NCBI GenBank assembly: GCA_937863905.1
Contig: CALMHV010000235.1
Span: 1-13,694 of the forward strand
DNA: 13,694 nt
Source: an uncultured Bacillota bacterium
GTDB taxonomy: Bacteria > Bacillota > Sulfobacillia > UBA995 > UBA9673
Reading direction: 5' to 3'
Part shown: piece by piece, positions 1,686-12,601 of the stretch
How the letters are laid out: each line of letters opens with the position of its first letter
How positions within the stretch are numbered: position 1 is the stretch's first letter
Notes under the pieces: model-generated
The model's input: the letters and a program-made list of their open reading frames with translations, nothing else
The model's database searches: none
Told to the model about the DNA's origin: nothing
Translations under genes and position numbers: made by a program

Positions 1686-1715
1686 TTGACGAGACTTGCG
1701 CCGTTTCAAGATGAT
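1686..1715 (+). promoter_or_regulatory. Possible sigma-A promoter for the asp23-amaP-DUF2273 group
   Basis: TTGACG (1686-1691, 5 of 6 to the -35 consensus) is followed after 18 nt by GATGAT (1710-1715, 4 of 6 to TATAAT). The stretch is AT-rich against a very GC-rich background and lies in the gap between spoIIIAH and the Asp23 gene, where a switch from sporulation to vegetative transcription would be expected. Predicted transcription would start near 1722, downstream of the TTG at 1696 and the ATG at 1711, which argues against both as start codons. This is an inference from consensus only. Confidence 0.45.
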
Positions 1716-1734
1716 AGACTTTGAAAGTGCCTAC

Positions 1735-1740
1735 GGTGGA
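1735..1740 (+). promoter_or_regulatory. Ribosome-binding site deciding the Asp23 start
   Basis: GGTGGA lies 6 nt before the in-frame TTG at 1747. The two upstream candidates, TTG 1696 and ATG 1711, have no comparable Shine-Dalgarno sequence and fall inside the promoter-like element, so this site favours the shorter protein. Confidence 0.5.
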
Positions 1741-1746
1741 AAACAC

Positions 1747-2181
1747 TTGATTTCGAAGCCTCGAGTGGAGGTGGAGGCGTCGACCGAACGGACCATCGGC
1801 CCATATGACAAAGACGCCGACGCCGGCGTGATTCGCATTTCCGACGACGTGGTGGGAACCATCGCCGGCATAGCGGCCATCGAAGTGGAAGGGGTCGCCG
1901 GTATGAGCGGCGGGATCGCGGGCGGTATCACGGAGATGCTTGGCCGCCGGAGTCTGGCCAAAGGGGTCAAGGTAGAGGTCGGGGAGCGCGAAGCCGCCCT
2001 GGACATGTTCGTCGTCGTCGAGTACGGGGTTCGCATCCCCGAGGTTGCCCAGCGCGTTCAGGAGAGCGTCAAGCGCGCTGTGGAGAGCATGACCGGCTTA
2101 CAGGTCGTGGAGATCAACGTCCACATCCAGGGTGTGGCGTTCCGACAGGAGCCCAGGGAGGAGGAGCCGAGGGTCAAATGA
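1747..2181 (+). CDS. Asp23/Gls24 family envelope stress protein
   Basis: Asp23 proteins are small soluble proteins that are abundant at the membrane in Gram-positive bacteria, tethered by AmaP and tied to alkaline/cell-envelope stress. The product is 144 aa from TTG 1747. The family signature is clear: VIRISDDVVGTIAGIAAIEV (28-47) followed by EGVAGMSGG, then the KGVKVEV strand, the FVVVEYGVRIPEVAQRVQES segment and the closing VVEINVHIQGV strand. The C-terminus is short and charged (REEEPR). The start was chosen on the Shine-Dalgarno match and the promoter position; ATG 1711 would give 156 aa. The stop overlaps the amaP ATG (ATGA at 2178-2181), implying translational coupling. The adjacent AmaP and DUF2273 genes are the usual partners. 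Confidence 0.92.
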   Translation: MISKPRVEVEASTERTIGPYDKDADAGVIRISDDVVGTIAGIAAIEVEGVAGMSGGIAGGITEMLGRRSLAKGVKVEVGEREAALDMFVVVEYGVRIPEVAQRVQESVKRAVESMTGLQVVEINVHIQGVAFRQEPREEEPRVK

Positions 2182-2720
2182 TGGGGATATTCGACCGCGT
2201 GATGTTGACGATCTTCACTCTTATCGTCGCCGCCTTTTCCGCTGTGGTCATCCTCCTCGCCGCCGGTTGGCTTGTTCCGCTGGAGGCGTTCTGGACAAGC
2301 CTGCTCAAGGTGTCGGGCCGGTGGGTCATCGGGACTCTGGCCGGGCTGACCTTCATCATCGCCGTCCGGTTCATCTACTTCGGCTTCCACCGCGCCGGCT
2401 CCGACGAGACCTTGGTGCATGAAAGCGAGCTCGGCGAGGTCCGCATCTCTCTCAGCGCCGTGGAAAACCTCGTCCGCAAAGTCGCGCGCCAGGTCAAGGG
2501 AGTGCGCGACGTCCGCGGCTGGGTCACCCCGGGGGGCGGCCGCCTCAACGTCAGACTCCGTACGGTCATCAGCCCGGACGTGAGCGTGCCCGACGTCTCC
2601 GGGGACATCCAGAACTCGGTCCGGGACTGCCTGAAGAACGTCGTCGGCGTGGAGGCCGGCGAGGTTCGCGTCTTCGTGGAGAACATATCGAACGAGGCCC
2701 GTCGCGGGCGGGTGGAGTAG
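2178..2720 (+). CDS. amaP: Alkaline shock response membrane anchor protein AmaP
   Basis: AmaP anchors Asp23 at the membrane in Staphylococcus. The 180-aa product has the family architecture: two N-terminal membrane segments (about residues 8-32 and 49-69) separated by a short loop, then a soluble Asp23-like domain (about 86-172) beginning GEVRISLSAVENLVRKVARQ and ending with the GEVRVFVENI strand. The first segment is of the TIFTLIVAAFSAVVILLAAG type seen in AmaP. The ATG at 2178 overlaps the stop of the preceding gene and a GGGAGGAGGAG run (2157-2167) precedes it; a second ATG directly follows at 2181, so the true N-terminus could be one residue shorter. The stop codon abuts the next ATG with no spacing. 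Confidence 0.9.
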   Translation: MMGIFDRVMLTIFTLIVAAFSAVVILLAAGWLVPLEAFWTSLLKVSGRWVIGTLAGLTFIIAVRFIYFGFHRAGSDETLVHESELGEVRISLSAVENLVRKVARQVKGVRDVRGWVTPGGGRLNVRLRTVISPDVSVPDVSGDIQNSVRDCLKNVVGVEAGEVRVFVENISNEARRGRVE

Positions 2721-3035
2721 ATGGCCGTTTTCCGGGGGCCCAAGGATGAGGACGCCGACCGGGATCTTCCGCCGGTCCGTTCTCCCGACGGGGGCGGAGA
2801 GTGGGCGCCCTTCTGGTGGGTGGCCCTGCAGTTTCTGCGGCGGCACCGTGGCAAGATAGCGGGGCTGGTCATCGGGCTCTGGGTCGGTTTCGGCATCCTG
2901 AAGCTGGGCGTCCTGTGGACCCTGTTCATCTCGCTGGTCGCCGGGCTCGGGTACTTCATCGGCAAGCGTCTAGACGACAACCAGGAGGGCCTGCTCGAGT
3001 TCCTCGACCGGGTTCTGCCGCCGGGGCGAGGCTAA
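2721..3035 (+). CDS. DUF2273 family small membrane protein
   Basis: This is a 104-aa protein of unknown molecular function. It has a charged N-terminal tail, the motif FLRRHRGKIAGLVIGLWVGF, and a second membrane segment (about residues 62-80) ending in GYFIGKRLDD. A short HRGKI box before two closely spaced membrane helices and a GYFIGK close is what the DUF2273 family looks like, and these genes habitually sit beside asp23 and amaP. The N-terminal 35 residues (Asp/Pro/Gly-rich) are longer than in typical members of about 60-75 aa. It starts directly after the amaP stop, so it is almost certainly co-translated and probably acts at the same membrane site as AmaP/Asp23. Confidence 0.88.
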   Translation: MAVFRGPKDEDADRDLPPVRSPDGGGEWAPFWWVALQFLRRHRGKIAGLVIGLWVGFGILKLGVLWTLFISLVAGLGYFIGKRLDDNQEGLLEFLDRVLPPGRG

Positions 3036-3605: not shown

Positions 3606-4472
3606 ATGTTCATAATCCGAAAGAAGCGCGACCTCACACCGGTCACCAAACTGTTCGTCGTCGACGCGCCCCTGGTGGCGAAGAAGGCCCAGCCGGGCCA
3701 ATTCGTCATCGTGCGGATAGCGCCGAGCGGTGAGCGCATCCCGCTGACCATCGCCGACGCCGACGCCAAGGCCGGCACGGTCACCATCGTCATCCAGGAA
3801 GTCGGTAAGACCAGCCGCCAGATGGGCCTCCTCAAGGAGGGCGACGGCATCCTCGACTTCGTCGGCCCCCTGGGACGGCCCGCCCCCCTGACCGACAAGG
3901 GTCCGGTGGTCCTGGTCGGCGGGGGTTTCGGCGTCGCCCCCATCTACCCCATCGCCAAGGCCCTCCGCGCCAAGGGCGTGAAGGTCATCTCCATCATCGG
4001 CGCGCGGTCCCAGGACCTGCTCATCCTCGAGGCGGAGATGGCCTCGGTGTCGGACGAACTCCTGGTGGCCACGGACGACGGGACCAAGGGCCACAAGGGT
4101 TTCGTGACCGAGGTTCTAAAGCAGCTCATCGACTCCGGGCGGGACATCGAACTGGTCATCGCCATCGGGCCGATGGTCATGATGCGCGCGGTCGGGAAGA
4201 CCACCGAGCCGTACAAGCTCAAGACCCTCGTCAGCGTCGACCCCATCATGGTCGACGGCACGGGGATGTGCGGGGCCTGCCGGCTCACTGTCGGCGGGAA
4301 GGTCAAGTTCGCCTGTGTCGACGGGCCCATTTTCGACGCCCACCAGGTGGACTTCGACGAGGCGAACCGCCGCGGCAAGATGTACGCGACCGAGCAGAAG
4401 CTCGCGGTTGACAGATTCGAGAAGGCCCACCACAGCGGACCGTGCGCCTGTGGATGCGGAGGTGGCCACTGA
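3606..4472 (+). CDS. nfnA: Ferredoxin:NADP+ oxidoreductase-type small subunit (NfnA/SudB-like)
   Basis: This is the FAD/NAD(H)-binding small subunit of a two-subunit enzyme of the NfnAB/SudBA family. It has a ferredoxin-reductase-like FAD domain (about 1-100), an NAD-binding half with VVLVGGGFGVAPIYPIAKAL (101-120), and a C-terminal [2Fe-2S] segment with Asp217, Cys222, Cys225 and Cys237. The Asp-plus-three-Cys cluster ligation is established for NfnA and SudB. NfnAB couples NADH and reduced ferredoxin to NADP reduction by electron bifurcation. Sequence alone cannot separate this from sulfide dehydrogenase/NADPH-oxidoreductase relatives. An odd feature is a C-terminal tail with His275-His276 and Cys280, Cys282, Cys284 and His288. 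The ATG at 3606 has a moderate purine-rich site (GGAAGAGAG, 3590-3598). The stop overlaps the next ATG by one base. Confidence 0.85.
   Translation: MFIIRKKRDLTPVTKLFVVDAPLVAKKAQPGQFVIVRIAPSGERIPLTIADADAKAGTVTIVIQEVGKTSRQMGLLKEGDGILDFVGPLGRPAPLTDKGPVVLVGGGFGVAPIYPIAKALRAKGVKVISIIGARSQDLLILEAEMASVSDELLVATDDGTKGHKGFVTEVLKQLIDSGRDIELVIAIGPMVMMRAVGKTTEPYKLKTLVSVDPIMVDGTGMCGACRLTVGGKVKFACVDGPIFDAHQVDFDEANRRGKMYATEQKLAVDRFEKAHHSGPCACGCGGGH
4458..4465 (+). promoter_or_regulatory. Strong ribosome-binding site deciding the nfnB start
   Basis: GGAGGTGG lies 6 nt before ATG 4472, inside the end of nfnA. It favours ATG 4472 over the in-frame GTG at 4442, which would add ten basic residues. The Gly codons it creates lie in the Cys/Gly-rich nfnA tail, so the same bases serve both functions. 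Confidence 0.75.
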
Positions 4473-5896
4473 TGCCCGAGCACGAGACCACACCCGCGAA
4501 GAGACTTCCCGTGAAACGCCCTCGGGCGGGGATGCCCACTCAGGACGCCAAGGCCCGGGGCCGCAACTTCAACGAGGTCGCCCTCGGTTACGGCGAGGAA
4601 CTGGCCGTCGGTGAGGCGGAGCGCTGCCTGGAGTGCAAGAAACCGGTCTGCCAGGAAGGTTGTCCGGTCGAGGTCCGGATCCCCGAGTTCCTGGGCAAGA
4701 TCCGGGACCGCGATTTCCGCGGCGCCTATGAGACCGTGAAGTCCACGAACAGCCTCCCGGCCGTCTGTGGCCGGGTTTGCCCGCAGGAAACGCAGTGCGA
4801 GATCAAGTGTGTTCTGGGCAAGAAGGCCGAGCCGGTGGCCATCGGACGCCTGGAGCGGTTCGTCTCCGACTGGGCCATGGGCCAGAGCCAAGACAAGCCG
4901 GCCCGCATCAAGCCCAACGGCAAGAAGGTCGCCATCGTCGGGTCCGGGCCGGCCGGCCTCACCTGCGCCGGCGATCTGGCCAAGAAGGGCTACAAGGTGA
5001 CCATCTTCGAGGCCCTTCACGCCCCGGGCGGCGTCCTCATCTATGGGATTCCCGAGTTCCGCCTGCCCAAGCAGATCGTGGCCGAGGAGGTCGGAAACCT
5101 CGAGGCCCTCGGGGTCGAGGTCATCTGCGATGTCGTCGTCGGGCGGACCATCACCGTCGACGAACTCTTCCAGCAGGGGTATGACGCCCTGTTCCTCGGA
5201 ACGGGCGCCGGCCTCCCGATGTTCATGAACATCCCCGGCGAGACCCTGAACGGGGTCTACTCCGCGAACGAATTCCTCACCCGGACCAACCTGATGAAGG
5301 CCTACCTCTTCCCGGAGTGGGACACGCCCATCAAGGTCGGCGAGCGCGTGGCCGTCATCGGGGCCGGGAACGTGGCCATGGACTCCGTCCGGTGCGCTTT
5401 CCGGCTGGGCGCGAAGGAAGCGGCCATCGTCTACCGCCGGTCGGAGGCGGAGATGCCGGCCAGGCACGAGGAGTTGGAGCACGCCAAGGAGGAGGGCATC
5501 GTCTTCCACACTCTCACCGCGCCGGTGCGCGTCCTGGGCAACGCCGACGGTTGGGTCACCGGCCTGGAGTGCATCAAAATGGAACTCGGCGAGCCCGACG
5601 ATTCCGGGCGGCGCCGTCCGATCCCGATCAAGGGGTCGGAGTTCACGCTCAACGTGGACACGGTCGTCATGGCCCTCGGCACGAGCCCGAACCCGCTGGT
5701 CTCGCAGACGACGCCCGGTCTTGACGTCGACAAACACGGCTGTCTTGTCGTGCGCGACGAGGACGGTCTGACGACCAGGGACCTCGTCTGGGCCGCCGGC
5801 GACGCCGTGACGGGCGCGGCGACGGTCATCCTGGCCATGGGCGGCGGCAAGAAGGCGGCCACGGCCATCGACAAGGTGCTCCAGGGGGCGAAGTAG
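4472..5896 (+). CDS. nfnB: Ferredoxin:NADP+ oxidoreductase-type large subunit (NfnB/SudA/GltD-like)
   Basis: This is the 474-aa large subunit partner of the preceding gene, homologous to the glutamate synthase small subunit. It has an N-terminal helical domain with eight cysteines in two groups, Cys52/55/60/64 and Cys99/103/109/113, for two [4Fe-4S] clusters, then the FAD site VAIVGSGPAGLTCAGDLAKK (153-172). An NADP(H)-binding half follows with VAVIGAGNVAMDSVRCAFRL and YRRSEAEMPA, and the closing FAD contact WAAGDAVTGAATVILAMGGG. The length matches NfnB/SudA (about 465-475 aa). With NfnA it probably interconverts NADH, ferredoxin and NADPH. A stand-alone NADPH-dependent glutamate synthase role is often annotated for this family, but the paired small subunit argues against that. 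ATG 4472 is supported by a near-perfect Shine-Dalgarno site, and TGATG couples it to nfnA. Confidence 0.88.
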   Translation: MPEHETTPAKRLPVKRPRAGMPTQDAKARGRNFNEVALGYGEELAVGEAERCLECKKPVCQEGCPVEVRIPEFLGKIRDRDFRGAYETVKSTNSLPAVCGRVCPQETQCEIKCVLGKKAEPVAIGRLERFVSDWAMGQSQDKPARIKPNGKKVAIVGSGPAGLTCAGDLAKKGYKVTIFEALHAPGGVLIYGIPEFRLPKQIVAEEVGNLEALGVEVICDVVVGRTITVDELFQQGYDALFLGTGAGLPMFMNIPGETLNGVYSANEFLTRTNLMKAYLFPEWDTPIKVGERVAVIGAGNVAMDSVRCAFRLGAKEAAIVYRRSEAEMPARHEELEHAKEEGIVFHTLTAPVRVLGNADGWVTGLECIKMELGEPDDSGRRRPIPIKGSEFTLNVDTVVMALGTSPNPLVSQTTPGLDVDKHGCLVVRDEDGLTTRDLVWAAGDAVTGAATVILAMGGGKKAATAIDKVLQGAK

Positions 5897-8072: not shown

Positions 8073-8324
8073 ATGGCCAAGGGCAAGTCGGCGGAACCGT
8101 CCTTCGAGGAAGCCCTGCGCCGGCTGGAAACGATAGTGTCCGAGCTTGAGCGGGGTGAACAGCCGCTGGAGAAGGCCTTGGCCCTCTTCGAGGAGGGCGT
8201 GGGCCTGTCGCGCGTCCTGACGGGCAAGCTCGAGGAGGCCCAGGCCAGGATAGACCGGCTGGTCGCGGCGGGCGACGGAGGCACGGAGCTGGCGCCGTTC
8301 GAGGGTGAGCCGGGCGAGAAGTGA
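8073..8324 (+). CDS. xseB: Exodeoxyribonuclease VII small subunit
   Basis: XseB is the 83-aa helical partner that wraps the XseA coiled coil in ExoVII. The sequence from SFEEALRRLETIVSELERGE through PLEKALALFEEGVGLSRVL to KLEEAQARID is the complete two-helix family signature, followed by a short acidic C-terminal tail (EGEPGEK). The ATG at 8073 is two bases after the xseA stop and has AAGGGGAG (8058-8065) at 7 nt. The frame is open much further upstream inside xseA, but that extension is out of register with any family member. Confidence 0.95.
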   Translation: MAKGKSAEPSFEEALRRLETIVSELERGEQPLEKALALFEEGVGLSRVLTGKLEEAQARIDRLVAAGDGGTELAPFEGEPGEK

Positions 8325-8333
8325 AGTGAAGCG

Positions 8334-8339
8334 AAGGGG
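8334..8339 (+). promoter_or_regulatory. Ribosome-binding site deciding the ispA start
   Basis: AAGGGG lies 7 nt before ATG 8347 (a second ATG follows at 8350). It favours this start over the in-frame GTG at 8305, which would overlap xseB by 20 nt and lacks its own site. Confidence 0.55.
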
Positions 8340-8346
8340 CGAGCTG

Positions 8347-9222
8347 ATGATGAACGACGCGGCGGCTGAGGCGGCCTACAAGCGGCGCGTGCGCCTGGTC
8401 AACGGCGGGCTGGATTCCATTCTCCCGCGGCCTACGGTCGAACCTTGCCGTCTTCATGAGGCCATGCGTCACGGGGTCTTCGGCGGGGGCGGGGGCAAGC
8501 GCTTGCGGCCGGTCATCCTGCTGACCGTGGCCTCCGACCTGGGCGTCGCCGAGGACCGCGCCCTGGCGGCGGCCATGGCTCTGGAACTGGTCCATGGCTA
8601 CTCGCTGGTCCACGATGACCTTCCCTGCATGGACGATGCCGCCGAACGCCGAGGGGCCGCGGCGGTGCACGCCGCGTACGGGTACGCTGAGGCCGTGCTG
8701 GCCGGAGACGCCCTGCTGACCCTGGCTTTCGAACTCCTGGGCCGCGCGGCCAACTCCGGGCTCCCGCGTCAGGGCGACCTCGTGGTCGAACTGGCCCTGG
8801 CCGCGGGGAGTCTGGGCATGGTCGGCGGTCAGCAGGCGGATCTCGACGCCAGCGGGGCCACGGCCGGGCGCCTGCCCGGCCCAGCCCATCCCATCCTCAA
8901 GCTTCACGGCCTGAAGACGGCTAAGCTATACGGGTTTGCCTTCTCCGCCCCGGGGTATCTCGCCGGGGCCAAGGCGCCGGTCATCCGGACCCTGCGGGAG
9001 GCGGGCCAGGACTTCGGTCTCGCCTTCCAGATCGCCGACGACATCCGCGACGCCGGGTCCGACACGGCCCCGAACTACGCCCAGGCGGCCGGGGCCACCC
9101 CGGCCCGTCAGGCCGGCCTCGACGCCGTCGCCCGGTGTCAGGCCGCCCTCACCGCCACCCTGGGCGAACCGGCCGAGATTCTCGCCCTTGTCCATGGCGC
9201 CAGCCGCGAGATGGGCCTTTAG
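8347..9222 (+). CDS. ispA: Polyprenyl (geranyl/farnesyl) diphosphate synthase, variant
   Basis: IspA-type trans-prenyltransferases condense isopentenyl diphosphate onto dimethylallyl/geranyl diphosphate. The product is 291 aa from ATG 8347. Both Mg-binding Asp motifs are intact: DDLPCMD (90-96) and DDIRD (231-235). GKRLRP (50-55), VGGQQADL and LKTAKL (189-194) are also recognisable. Departures from the family: five glycines precede KRLRP where the usual form is AGGKR; RRGKPT has become RRGAAA (101-106); and the segment after the second Asp motif, normally carrying a GKxxGxD..KxTYP element, is shortened and lacks those lysines (NYAQAAGATPARQAG). A working but altered enzyme or a drifting one are both possible. 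It is the last protein gene before the OLE RNA; dxs lies beyond. Confidence 0.88.
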   Translation: MMNDAAAEAAYKRRVRLVNGGLDSILPRPTVEPCRLHEAMRHGVFGGGGGKRLRPVILLTVASDLGVAEDRALAAAMALELVHGYSLVHDDLPCMDDAAERRGAAAVHAAYGYAEAVLAGDALLTLAFELLGRAANSGLPRQGDLVVELALAAGSLGMVGGQQADLDASGATAGRLPGPAHPILKLHGLKTAKLYGFAFSAPGYLAGAKAPVIRTLREAGQDFGLAFQIADDIRDAGSDTAPNYAQAAGATPARQAGLDAVARCQAALTATLGEPAEILALVHGASREMGL

Positions 9223-9258
9223 GTCTCGCCGTCGCTCCTGGTTTCAACGAATCAAGCA

Positions 9259-9267
9259 TGCTATAAT
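9259..9267 (+). promoter_or_regulatory. Extended -10 promoter of the OLE RNA
   Basis: TGCTATAAT is a perfect extended -10 (TGn plus TATAAT at 9262-9267) in an AT-rich island 37 nt after the ispA stop. The -35 region at 17-18 nt spacing (around 9238-9244) is weak, as is common for extended -10 promoters. The predicted start is near 9274, 28 nt before the terminal helix of the RNA. This suggests OLE can be transcribed independently of ispA and upstream genes, in addition to read-through. Confidence 0.65.
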
Positions 9268-9280
9268 GAAACACGTTTCA
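9267..9280. promoter_or_regulatory. Operator-like inverted repeat at the OLE start site
   Basis: TGAAAC-AC-GTTTCA is a perfect inverted repeat with 6-bp arms and a 2-bp centre, covering the predicted transcription start. A third copy of the half-site GTTTCA lies at 9241-9246, on the other side of the -10 element. The 14-bp form resembles LacI-family operators such as cre (TGWAANCGNTNWCA) but lacks the central CG. The 2-nt centre is too tight for an RNA hairpin, so a DNA-binding repressor site is more likely. Confidence 0.4.
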
Positions 9281-9890
9281 CGCAGCTTATAGACAAGAGT
9301 TGGGAGGCCAGTGGCGCAGTATCCTAGTCGGAGTCGTCGCTCATAAGGGCGGGGCTAAAAATCCGCCAAGGGCACATCGATGAAGTTCCTGGTGGCAGCC
9401 TTCGACGCCCAGTCGAGGGTTGGTGCTGGGAGTTAAGGAGCGGGGGCAGCCCGCAAAGGCATGTGGGTGCCGACCCTCGTTCCGCGGAGGCCCAAGTGCA
9501 TGGCCAGGTCTAGATGACCGGCGAGGACTTGGGGGAAGAACCTGCATTCGGATAGAGAACTGGGTGCAGCGTAGCCTGCCTTGAGCGGCGGTGGTGGACC
9601 GGACGTCTTGGGCGCGCAGAAGGCGCGCTCTGTCCCGAAACCATCGTTCGCAATAAAGGCTAAAGAGCGAACGGCGCCGTAGAGGAAAACTCCTAGGCTG
9701 CTCGACGACAAGTTGAGGCGGACCGGGGATTACAGTGTGCTCTAAGTGGCAATCCAGCCCTGTCGCGGGCGACCCGGCAGGGACCTCGTAAAGGGAAACC
9801 GCCCCGGCGGCGACGCCGCGGTGAGGTCTGGGAAAGCCTGCTGGACCTAAGACACAACGTTTACTCGGTTCGTTGCCACCGGCTCTCAGC
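9274..9890 (+). ncRNA. ole: OLE (Ornate, Large, Extremophilic) RNA
   Basis: The 699 bases between ispA and oapA hold no supported protein but a highly structured RNA whose length (about 610 nt), position between ispA and dxs, and direct linkage to oapA match OLE RNA as known from Bacillus halodurans and other extremophilic Firmicutes. The two ends pair: 9302-9306/9883-9887, 9308-9309/9881-9882 and 9311-9315/9875-9879. Internal helices seen are 9348-9352/9363-9367; 9414-9423/9470-9479 (10 bp, one G-U) enclosing 9440-9444/9450-9454; 9491-9497/9527-9533 enclosing 9507-9510/9516-9519; 9542-9549/9562-9569; 9612-9617/9623-9628; 9645-9651/9667-9673; 9783-9787/9823-9827 enclosing a GCGA-capped hairpin 9805-9818. 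OLE forms a membrane-associated complex with OapA and has been linked to cold, ethanol and magnesium stress. Exact ends are estimates: the 5' end from the promoter, the 3' end from the terminal helix. Confidence 0.92.
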
Positions 9891-9911
9891 CATTCTTCTT
9901 GCAGAGAAAGG
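9890..9911 (+). promoter_or_regulatory. Possible hairpin overlapping the oapA ribosome-binding site
   Basis: CC-A-TTCT (9890-9896) can pair with AGAA-A-GG (9905-9911), leaving an 8-nt loop and one A-A mismatch. The 3' arm includes half of the oapA Shine-Dalgarno sequence. The stem is short and AU-rich, and bases 9897-9901 could instead pair with CAAGA (9294-9298) as an outward extension of the OLE terminal helix. The two pairings would exclude each other in part, which is the shape of a switch, but this is speculative. Confidence 0.25.
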
Positions 9912-9914
9912 TGA
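9907..9914 (+). promoter_or_regulatory. Ribosome-binding site for oapA
   Basis: AAAGGTGA lies 7 nt before TTG 9922 and is the best Shine-Dalgarno match in the gap after the OLE RNA, so it fixes the unusual TTG start of oapA. Confidence 0.65.
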
Positions 9915-9921
9915 CGCGGTT

Positions 9922-10578
9922 TTGTCAGGGCCAGGCCGGAGAGGGGGAGAGTTGGTCGGTCCCCGTTCCGTCCTGGTCATCTTTGTCGCCACGTTCGCCC
10001 TCGCGACAGTCTTCTCGCTCCTTTCCGACAGAGTCCTCCGGTCCGCGACGCTCGTGGCCGGTCTCGTCCTGGTCGGCATCATCGCCGTGGGCATCGTTTT
10101 CGACATCATCGGACTGGCGACGGCCACAGCCGACCATTCCCCCCTTCACTCCATGGCCGCCAAGAAGGTTCCTGGGGCGCGGCAGGCCCTGCGCCTCGTC
10201 CGCAACGCTCCGCGAGTCGCCACCATCTGCAACGACCTGGTCGGGGATATCTGCGGCACGGTGAGCGGGGCGGCCGGGGCGGGCATCGTCCTTCACATCC
10301 TGGCGAGGCAGGTCTCGCCGAGACCGCCGGCGCTCGGAGGGTCGCTGGGGACTGACGGTGGTCTCTGGGCGGTTCTGGCGGTGGCCCTCGTCGCGGCGGT
10401 GACCGTGGGTGGGAAGGCCATCGGTAAGAACGTGGCCATCGGACGGGCCAACCGCATTGTCTTCGCGGTCGGCCGCTTCCTTTGGTGGGTCGAGCAGCGA
10501 CTGGGGCTGGTCCTCCTGAAGGATAGGCCGACCCCGCGCCGCGCCTCCAGGCGAAGGGTGACCCAAATCGATGAGTAG
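9922..10578 (+). CDS. oapA: OLE-associated protein A (OapA), DUF21-like membrane protein
   Basis: OapA is the membrane protein that binds OLE RNA and holds it at the membrane. From TTG 9922 the product is 218 aa with four hydrophobic segments (about 15-34, 42-64, 110-130 and 147-165). Between segments 2 and 3 is a conserved-looking core: ATADHSPLHSMAAKKVPGAR, ALRLVRNAPRVATICNDLVG, then DICGTVSGAAGAG. This resembles the DUF21 transmembrane domain of CNNM/CorC-type magnesium proteins, without any CBS domain. The basic C-terminal tail (PRRASRRRV) and the basic N-terminus are candidate RNA contacts. It directly follows the OLE RNA, and the dxs ATG lies 8 nt inside its 3' end, so it is co-translated with dxs. 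TTG 9952 is an alternative start, which would sit very close to its purine-rich site. Confidence 0.9.
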   Translation: MSGPGRRGGELVGPRSVLVIFVATFALATVFSLLSDRVLRSATLVAGLVLVGIIAVGIVFDIIGLATATADHSPLHSMAAKKVPGARQALRLVRNAPRVATICNDLVGDICGTVSGAAGAGIVLHILARQVSPRPPALGGSLGTDGGLWAVLAVALVAAVTVGGKAIGKNVAIGRANRIVFAVGRFLWWVEQRLGLVLLKDRPTPRRASRRRVTQIDE

Positions 10579-12601
10579 GGTCGGCGACGCCCCATCCGGC
10601 CTGGCATCAATCAAGGGCCCGGCGGACCTGAAGGTCCTGCCGGCGGCCGGCCTGCCACGCCTGGCCGAGGAGGTCCGTTCGCGAATCATCGAGACGGTCG
10701 CCCGGAACGGCGGGCACCTGGCCCCCAACCTCGGCGTGGTCGAGCTGACCATCGCCCTTCACCGGGCGTTCGACAGCCCCCGGGACCGCATCGTCTGGGA
10801 CGTCGGGCACCAGACCTACACCCACAAGATGCTCACCGGACGGCTCGACGGTTTCGCCAGCCTCCGCCGGGACGGTGGGCTGAGCGGTTTCCCCCGTCGC
10901 GCTGAGAGCCCGCACGACGTCTTCGAGACCGGACACGCCTCCACGTCGATCTCCGCCGCGCTGGGCATGGCCAAGGCCCGGGACCTTAAGGGCGAGGACT
11001 TCTACGTCGTCGCGGTCATCGGCGACGGGGCCCTCACCGGCGGCCAGGCCTTCGAGGCCCTGAACAACGCTGGGCACATGAAGACCGACCTCATCATCAT
11101 CCTCAACGACAATGAGTTTTCCTACGGTCCGACCGTGGGCGGTCTGGCCGCTTACCTGGGCCGGATGCGGACGAGCGTGGCCTACTCGCGGTTCAAGGGA
11201 GGTCTTGAGCGGGCCGTGAAGGCCGTGCCGCTCATCGGCTCGGCCCTCTTCGCCCTCGGCGGCCGCCTCAAGGGCAGCCTCAAGTACCTCGTCGTGAAGG
11301 GGATGCTCTTCGAGGAACTCGGGTTCGCTTACCTCGGGCCTATCGACGGGCACAGTTTCCCCCAGCTTGAGGACTACCTGAACCGGGCCAAGCGCATCCG
11401 GGGGCCGGTCTTCCTCCACGTTCAAACGAAGAAGGGGAAAGGGTACCCTCCCGCTGAGCGCGACCCGGACCGTTTCCACGGGACGGGCCCGTTCGACCCG
11501 GTGACCGGTTCGCCCCTGCCGCCCTCGATGAACGGGTCGAGCAACGGGGGGCCGTCGACGTCGTCGAACGGAGGACTGCCGCCCTCCCCGGCGCGCCTGA
11601 GCTACACCCAGGCCTTCGGGCAGGCGCTCCTTCGCCTGGGCGAGATGGACAACAGCATCGTGGTCATAACGGCGGCCATGGCGTCGAGCACGGGCGTCCT
11701 GCCCTTCGCCCGGCGCTTCCCGAAGCGTTGGTTCGACGTGGGGATATGTGAGCAGCATGCCGTCACCTTCGCCGCCGGCCTGGCCCGGGAAGGGTTGCGG
11801 CCGGTCGTCGCTGTCTACTCCACCTTCCTGCAGCGGGGGTACGACCAAATCCTACACGACGTCTGCCTGCAGCACCTCCCGGTGACCTTCATGCTCGACC
11901 GGGCCGGGCTCGTGGGCGCGGACGGGCCGACCCACCACGGCGTCTACGACCTGGCCTACCTAAGATCCATGCCCGGGATGACGGTGATGGCCCCGCGGGA
12001 CGAGAACGAACTCCAGCACATGCTGAAGACAGCCGTTTACCTTGGCGGCCCCGCCGCCGTCAGATACCCGCGCGGCTCGGGCCTTGGCGTCGCCCTGGAC
12101 GAGAAGCTCCACCGCTTGCCCGTCGGCGAGGCCGAGGTCCTGCGCGAGGGTGATGACGTGGCCATCCTGGCCATCGGGTCGATGGTCGGGCCGGCCAGGG
12201 AAGCAGCGGAGCGGCTCGCGGAAGGACTCCCCGCAGGCAGCGGGGGCCCTCCGGGCCGGCGCCTCGAAGCCACGGTCGTCAACGCCCGTTTCGCCGCGCC
12301 CCTGGACACGGCCCTCGTCCTGAGACTCGCCGGCAGCGTGGGGGCGCTGGTCACGGTCGAGGAACACGTGTCGAAAGGCGGGTTCGGGAGCGCCGTGGCC
12401 GAGGCGGTGGCCGACGCGGGCCTGGGGATGGCCGGTTGCCAAGCGGTCTACCTGCGCCGCCTGGCCCTTCCCGACGAGCCCGTGCCCCACGGCAAGGTTG
12501 AGGGACTCCTGGCGCGGCTGGGCCTGGACGCGCCGGCCATCGCCACGGCGGCCCGGGACCTGGTGGTCGAGAAGCTGGCCGAGGGCCGGAGGCGAGGCTA
12601 G
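10571..12601 (+). CDS. dxs: 1-deoxy-D-xylulose-5-phosphate synthase
   Basis: Dxs condenses pyruvate and glyceraldehyde 3-phosphate (thiamine diphosphate, Mg) to start the MEP isoprenoid pathway. At 676 aa it is somewhat longer than the usual 620-640. It shows DVGHQTYTHKMLTGR (77-91), ETGHASTSISAALGMAKA (119-136), the ThDP motif GDGALTGGQAFEALNNAG (151-168) continuing to LNDNE (178-182), GMLFEELGFAYLGPIDGH (244-261), the pyrimidine-domain glutamate Glu394 in DVGICEQHAVTFAAG, and DRAGLVGADGPTHHG (443-457). Oddities: Phe183 where NDNxMS normally has Met, a roughly 27-residue Pro/Gly/Ser/Asn-rich linker (314-340) between the first and second domains, and a 28-residue N-terminal extension. The ATG overlaps the end of oapA, with GAAGGGTGA upstream. 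Confidence 0.96.
   Translation: MSRVGDAPSGLASIKGPADLKVLPAAGLPRLAEEVRSRIIETVARNGGHLAPNLGVVELTIALHRAFDSPRDRIVWDVGHQTYTHKMLTGRLDGFASLRRDGGLSGFPRRAESPHDVFETGHASTSISAALGMAKARDLKGEDFYVVAVIGDGALTGGQAFEALNNAGHMKTDLIIILNDNEFSYGPTVGGLAAYLGRMRTSVAYSRFKGGLERAVKAVPLIGSALFALGGRLKGSLKYLVVKGMLFEELGFAYLGPIDGHSFPQLEDYLNRAKRIRGPVFLHVQTKKGKGYPPAERDPDRFHGTGPFDPVTGSPLPPSMNGSSNGGPSTSSNGGLPPSPARLSYTQAFGQALLRLGEMDNSIVVITAAMASSTGVLPFARRFPKRWFDVGICEQHAVTFAAGLAREGLRPVVAVYSTFLQRGYDQILHDVCLQHLPVTFMLDRAGLVGADGPTHHGVYDLAYLRSMPGMTVMAPRDENELQHMLKTAVYLGGPAAVRYPRGSGLGVALDEKLHRLPVGEAEVLREGDDVAILAIGSMVGPAREAAERLAEGLPAGSGGPPGRRLEATVVNARFAAPLDTALVLRLAGSVGALVTVEEHVSKGGFGSAVAEAVADAGLGMAGCQAVYLRRLALPDEPVPHGKVEGLLARLGLDAPAIATAARDLVVEKLAEGRRRG

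Follow-up and report, generated by a model that had tools for sequence, protein, structure and literature searches.

A complete OLE RNA gene beside oapA in an uncultured Bacillota bacterium, with an apparent loss of the L9.3 loop

Few structured bacterial RNAs that lack a known biochemical activity are as large as OLE RNA, which has been put forward as the first integral membrane RNA. Here we analyze an OLE locus in a 13,694-nucleotide (nt) stretch of DNA from an uncultured Bacillota bacterium (the window, contig C235 of a draft genome of 1.94 Mb in 452 contigs that is 92.9% complete). In Bacillota, Fernando and Breaker (2024, PMC11332333) counted OLE in 2,822 genomes. In that work full-length RNAs score at least 390 bits with the authors' own model, and two variants are set apart by their bit scores and by an altered P7–P9 region; variant 1 has a shorter P9, its P7 and P8 are shortened too and its OapB site is often missing, and variant 2 is without P7 and P8. 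The protein OapA binds OLE in or near P2 and P4a, OapB binds the P13 region in H. halodurans, the P3 helix is proposed to cross the membrane, and a polycistronic transcript is described in H. halodurans (all PMC12265935). Binding of bS21 in H. halodurans is tied to an anti-Shine-Dalgarno mimic, CCUCC, in OLE P6. Finally, the cryogenic electron microscopy (cryo-EM) dimer (Kretsch et al. 2025, PMC12286853) includes bridge B1 and bridge B3, the latter a symmetric kissing loop in L9.3 that covaries between palindromes.

The window holds a genuine and complete OLE RNA gene beside its membrane-protein gene, and it is in this an ordinary member of a known family; the exception, as read from the sequence, is that one loop of the known OLE-OLE contact appears to be missing. 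The two genes are as follows.

9295..9895, + strand: OLE RNA at full model length (cmscan, RF01071)
9922..10578, + strand: oapA, with its start at TTG 9922 (218 amino acids) or TTG 9952 (208 amino acids)

A preliminary description of the window had proposed a structured non-coding stretch of about 600 nt, preceded by ispA and followed by a membrane protein gene and dxs, and this arrangement is borne out by the open reading frames, by family searches and by Rfam family RF01071. A search with the OLE covariance model, which that description had named as a check, matches model positions 1–616 to 9295–9895 (+) with 429.7 bits (E 1.6e-123) against a gathering score of 50; no other Rfam family reached its own gathering score when the whole window was scanned, and the OLE model found one copy of ole in the 1.94 Mb and 452 contigs of the genome. 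The adjoining protein had been taken for OapA, and it scores 246.4 bits (E 3.4e-74) against a profile of 166 other OapAs that was built without it. It has four membrane helices and a predicted CNNM-like fold, and it keeps the family's conserved Asp, Gly and Lys; its score against Pfam CNNM (27.0 bits) is just under the cut-off of 28.4, no NCBIfam model matched it and a sequence search of the PDB gave no match. Both of its TTG starts are plausible, with AAAGGTGA before 9922 and GAGAGGGGGAGAG before 9952 (9899–9954).

The other published partners are encoded elsewhere in the genome. For OapB, a KOW-type protein that would bind OLE, the top PDB entry is 7k9b, 'OLE-associated protein B' (E 1e-6), and the oapB gene sits between map (named from its translation) and infA, where it was located by inspecting the infA neighborhood. 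The genome has two PF00467 (KOW) matches; L033 was rejected as oapB since its neighbors place it in the rplX region, and L034 is not the oapB gene, which was found beside infA. OapC/YbxF, an L7Ae-type k-turn protein, was identified by PF01248 (52.6 bits) and by PDB entries 3v7e (2.6e-16) and 4lck, YbxF (3e-16), and bS21 is also encoded. OapA is the sole CNNM match in the 92.9% complete assembly, and no CNNM-CBS-CorC protein was found in this OLE genome, so the MpfA-OLE anticorrelation, which is a tendency and not a rule, holds here. The proposal of a true OLE locus with oapB and oapC elsewhere in the genome is thus supported by the RF01071 match, by the identity of OapA and by the presence of both genes; the preliminary description had stated that the lack of an OLE match or a neighboring protein other than OapA would speak against it, and on both counts the outcome favors OLE.

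The sequences that correspond to the dimer bridges map as follows.

9348..9367, + strand: P4 hairpin with A-rich loop CUAAAAAU (bridge B1; RF01071 alignment and loop survey)
9403..9415, + strand: P5.1 loop CGACGCCCAGUCG (bridge B2, GCC side; loop survey)
9452..9463, + strand: P6.1 loop CGCAAAGGCAUG (bridge B2, GGC side; loop survey)
9573..9662, + strand: P9, 90 nt, between the short (57–83) and long (95–152) P9 stems of the other 141 loci
9610..9630, + strand: P9 tip GGGCGCGC-AGAAG-GCGCGCUC, a stem with a non-palindromic loop at the expected L9.3 position

The window RNA has the A-rich L4 loop of B1 (CUAAAAAUCC) and the complementary P5.1 GCC and P6.1 GGC loops of B2 (GACGCCCAGUC and CAAAGGCAUG). 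P9 was surveyed with fixed anchors, and apical loops were taken from minimum-free-energy folds. Of 179 loci, 142 gave a P9; the 37 others comprise 4 that are not OLE loci and 33 that were dropped, among them the low-scoring loci L168–L180 of the class, L054, L099 (which does hold an OLE, at 438.7 bits) and OapA matches without a recognizable or complete ole. The 142 stems (137 distinct sequences) fall into 21 of 57–83 nt and 121 of 90–152 nt, 101 of the latter being 102–111 nt long. An apical palindrome of at least 4 nt, most commonly GGGCCC, TGGCCA or GGCC, is present in 112 of the 121 long stems, and one of 4 nt in 3 of the 21 short ones. Nine stems longer than 85 nt have no apical palindrome; three of these (L050, L148 and L166) carry GGGCCC elsewhere in P9 and may be misfolded. 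The two same-family relatives of the window RNA (L018 and L019) have a P9 of 111 nt with GGGCCC, and the four members examined of a sister family (f2) have one of 61–68 nt.

A second sample of 90 RNAs (86 distinct P9 sequences), drawn from the 284 matching phylum genomes as the 30 top-scoring plus every second further match listed and so biased to high scores, gave the palindrome in 82 of 87 P9 stems of at least 98 nt and in none of 3 of at most 86 nt. This sample is not fully independent because L181 and L182 share the P9 of L133; when they are left out, the counts are 80 of 85 and none of 3. A single family (f60) accounts for four of the 5 long exceptions, and therefore a long P9 does not guarantee an L9.3 loop. 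These four f60 loci (L231, L234, L241 and L243) have a P9 of 104–116 nt without an apical palindrome; L238, which shares its genus with three of them, carries AGATCT, and L254 and L262 have a P9 of 86 and 62 nt. Family f60 has apparently lost L9.3 repeatedly and recently.

When the state is set by a P9 of at most 95 nt, L9.3 is absent in 22 of 134 rows, which corresponds to 11 changes on a quickly built OapA tree, many of whose branches are weak, with at least 8 of the changes forced by supported branches; on these counts L9.3 is not a defining feature of the OLE family. Other parts of the dimer interface are largely kept in the 23 rows with such a P9. The A-rich L4 occurs in 21 (it was not found in L117, and L167 has four A) and the P6.1 GGC in 22 (the exception is L117, whose overall match is poor). 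The P5.1 motif was recognized in 17, with an altered form in L009, and was unrecognized in L117 and in five metagenome-assembled genome (MAG) loci labeled Clostridia. A cultured example is Caldanaerobacter subterraneus DSM 13054, which has no L9.3 (P9 of 69 nt) in an OLE RNA of 541.7 bits and whose OapA shares 92% identity with the OapA of a Thermoanaerobacter MAG (L063); this MAG and T. wiegelii (L133) both carry AAGAGCUCU. The available portions of PMC11332333, PMC12265935, PMC9723947, PMC12286853 and PMC12054373 contain no description of a loss of P9 alone. We infer that B3 is truly absent from the window RNA, with no other contact in its place. It seems fairly probable to us that the P9 arch and B3 form a dispensable OLE module that was lost many times while B1, B2 and OapA stayed, and that the window RNA, with its mid-length P9, is one such case. 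If so, natural OLE RNAs, many of them full-length by score, must dimerize without B3, if they dimerize at all, and Thermoanaerobacter, which has L9.3, and its close relative Caldanaerobacter subterraneus, which lacks it, would be a cultured test pair.

The P3 helix is left unpaired in the Rfam model, and its strands were placed as follows.

9327..9342, + strand: P3/P3.1 5' strand, which pairs with 9665–9678 (13 bp in the predicted duplex)
9665..9678, + strand: P3/P3.1 3' strand (anchors and duplex prediction)

In 140 RNAs (the anchors failed in 2 of 142 rows) the stretch from GUC to L4 measures 27.6 ± 0.70 nt and the 3' stretch 21.8 ± 1.0 nt, and there are 112 distinct 5' strands. An RNA's own two strands pair at an average of -18.8 kcal/mol, versus -9.2 when the two strands come from different RNAs (-9.9 in the best of 50 shuffles). 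For the window RNA the value is -21.4 kcal/mol, which only 1 of 139 foreign 3' strands equaled (foreign mean -9.9). Since own strands outpair foreign ones and the lengths are nearly constant, P3 keeps a set length even as compensated changes accumulate in its sequence. This near-constancy agrees with the membrane-crossing proposal and is not proof of it; a length constant to about 1 nt equally fits any rigid structural helix.

A candidate promoter precedes the RNA.

9259..9267, + strand: extended -10 motif TGCTATAAT, the probable own promoter of ole, with a start expected near 9274–9276

Its first base, 9259, is also the start coordinate in the preliminary description. This extended -10 element was first spotted by eye and then tested on other loci. 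Of 134 loci, 82 have the pattern TGNTA[TA]NAT in the 100 nt that precede the conserved GUGG, versus 2 of 134 control stretches taken 200–300 nt upstream; 200 shuffles gave a mean of 3.8 and a maximum of 10. The second sample has it in 68 of 86 loci (shuffle mean 4.3, maximum 11). It is absent from 52 of 134 and 18 of 86 loci in the two samples, and its distance to GUGG spans 12 to 92 nt. A sigma-70 scan of 8900–10700, whose rule requires a good -35, reported no promoter. An own promoter of ole is not mentioned in those portions of the OLE literature on promoters that we met. In most loci examined the motif stands ahead of ole, which suggests that transcription of the RNA need not depend on the genes upstream, and ole may often have its own extended -10 promoter.

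We are highly confident that the window holds a true OLE ribonucleoprotein locus whose RNA and partners act in the following way. The RNA would probably be transcribed from an extended -10 promoter of its own a short way upstream, would fold into the OLE architecture of domain 1, the P3 helix and domain 2, and would bind OapA from the adjoining gene together with OapC, OapB and possibly bS21 from genes elsewhere. The complex would be held at the membrane, where it is thought to act in the stress response and in Mg2+ balance in place of MpfA, and it may dimerize with B1 and B2 as its bridges and no P9 kissing loop B3 (this last being our own suggestion). The RNA, its pairings, the partner genes and the lack of a second CNNM match derive from sequence, and membrane localization, dimerization and the stress role from published work. 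Several observations weigh against this explanation. The P9 loop AGAAG holds no palindrome of at least 4 nt. Foldseek alone finds the CNNM fold for OapA at E 8.6e-3 only. The OapB match is modest, with archaeal eL14 proteins next at 7e-5. The absence of MpfA is not certain because the assembly is fragmented. Finally, CCUCC is absent from the P6 3' arm of the window RNA (P6 region 9435–9485), as it is from its two relatives in the same family. Scored as an exact match, with partial mimics left out of the scoring, CCUCC occurs in 48 of the 166 OLE RNAs whose anchors were found and is absent in 118, and the exact mimic is therefore not general.

Other readings of the locus were considered. The direct placement of ole upstream of oapA in the same orientation, and a scan in which the + strand between the two genes showed no terminator-like site, would also suit a long, riboswitch-like cis-acting 5' leader of oapA-dxs in place of a stand-alone RNA. 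We regard this as highly improbable, given that the RNA matches, over its full length, a family that has protein partners of its own, and given seven genomes of the class in which oapA lies not in the fetched ole flanks but elsewhere (once about 362 kb off on the same contig). A P9 that falls between both length classes at 90 nt and has no palindrome could be the first sign of degeneration in a decaying OLE copy; however, the remainder of the RNA fits the model throughout at 429.7 bits, its P3 pairing is preserved and compensated, and OapA keeps the family's conserved positions. Moreover, a score of 541.7 bits is reached by an RNA without L9.3, and the same loss is seen repeatedly, in several lineages, so that decay is very unlikely. 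The odd P9 tip might instead be an assembly or sequencing artifact of a GC-rich hairpin, as it is known from one contig of one draft assembly and the genomes searched included no other of the genus. A simple deletion, however, does not account for the difference between the arms of this P9 and those of the nearest relatives L018 and L019, and short P9 stems are present independently in sister family f2; we consider an artifact quite unlikely. The GC-rich tip could also make another P9-P9 contact, for example through the self-complementary hexamer GCGCGC that each of its arms contains. In the predicted fold, however, the arms pair with each other, and any hairpin could in principle form such a duplex; no other such tip was noticed among 232 P9 stems, of which only the loops of the exceptions were inspected. 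A contact of this kind is unlikely, though the least so of these alternatives.

Further elements of the RNA are labeled by position.

9317..9327, + strand: P2 5' strand with a CUAG palindrome, near one of the two published OapA-binding palindromes
9376..9381, + strand: AUCGAU palindrome in the P4a/J4a-5 region, a candidate for the second published OapA palindrome; the conserved core around it is matched without error
9781..9828, + strand: P13-region stem-loop of domain 2, aligned to the Rfam consensus

The genes on either side are those expected from the preliminary description, which had named folD-xseA-xseB-ispA-dxs as the typical neighborhood of OLE; two of them flank the ole-oapA pair.

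8305..9222, + strand: ispA, a polyprenyl synthetase gene whose best NCBIfam match, farnesyl diphosphate synthase, is under its cut-off
10571..12601, + strand: dxs (TIGR00204, 776.9 bits)

Upstream are spoIIIAG, spoIIIAH, an asp23-family gene, amaP, a DUF2273 gene, nusB, a flavoprotein/gltA pair, folD, xseA, xseB and ispA, and downstream are oapA, dxs and tlyA; nusB, folD, ispA, dxs and tlyA were identified through family searches, xseA and xseB are named only from their translations and positions, and the spoIIIAG match is under its NCBIfam cut-off. The Asp23-family, AmaP and DUF2273 genes are grouped at 1696–3035 with spoIIIAG/AH on one side and nusB on the other, and the flavoprotein (NF004862) and gltA (TIGR01316) genes lie at 3606–5896 between nusB and folD, a pair that we take to resemble NfnA/NfnB.

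Searches recovered OLE from 55 of a set of 61 relatives that includes the window's own genome, from 100 of 154 genomes of the class and from 284 of 398 genomes drawn from the phylum. OLE is thus common at each of these levels and the locus itself is expected; it adds nothing new in kind, and its interest lies in the comparative points, all of them computational. The preliminary description had called a GC-rich variant valuable for covariation (the OLE RNA is 62.1% guanine plus cytosine (GC), the window 67.8%); because OLE is so abundant one more member adds little, and it is the missing L9.3 loop that is informative. The comparison offers natural deletions of one dimer contact, which bear on whether B3 is needed for the dimer, and further testable points in the near-constant length of P3 and the promoter motif before ole in most loci examined. 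Genomes with oapA elsewhere than in the fetched ole flank (G015, G033, G040, G051, where the distance is about 362 kb on one contig, G075, G090 and G098) are useful to tell apart what ole and oapA each do. Full OLE RNAs of 429–462 bits also lie beside OapA on six MAG contigs (L071, L095, L099, L102, L114 and L116), of which five are titled Actinomycetota and one Candidatus Humimicrobium. The OapAs of all but L099 form one supported set on the quick tree (99 by the SH-like approximate likelihood ratio test, SH-aLRT), which appears to fit long-standing OLE presence in an Actinomycetota-titled lineage better than scattered assembly errors.

Compared with known systems, the window RNA resembles the OLE family (RF01071) in its full length, its adjoining oapA and its ispA-dxs neighborhood, and in that all three published essential partners (OapA, OapB and OapC) are encoded in the genome; it differs in its 90-nt P9 without a palindromic L9.3, in the lack of CCUCC in P6 and in its GC content of 62%. 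It shares a shorter P9 with variant 1 of PMC11332333; unlike variants 1 and 2, however, it keeps the P7/P8 stretch (82 nt) and the P13 region intact, and its 429.7 bits compare only approximately with the 390 of that paper, since the former comes from the Rfam model and the latter from the authors' own. OapA is predicted to share the CNNM membrane fold with the MpfA/CorC/CNNM Mg2+ transporters, but it is too short for the CBS and CorC domains, neither of which it matched, and it is encoded with an OLE RNA. The sequences of B1 and B2 in the Clostridium acetobutylicum cryo-EM dimer, as given in the available text of Kretsch et al. (2025, PMC12286853), are present in the window RNA, whereas B3 of that dimer is without a counterpart in it.
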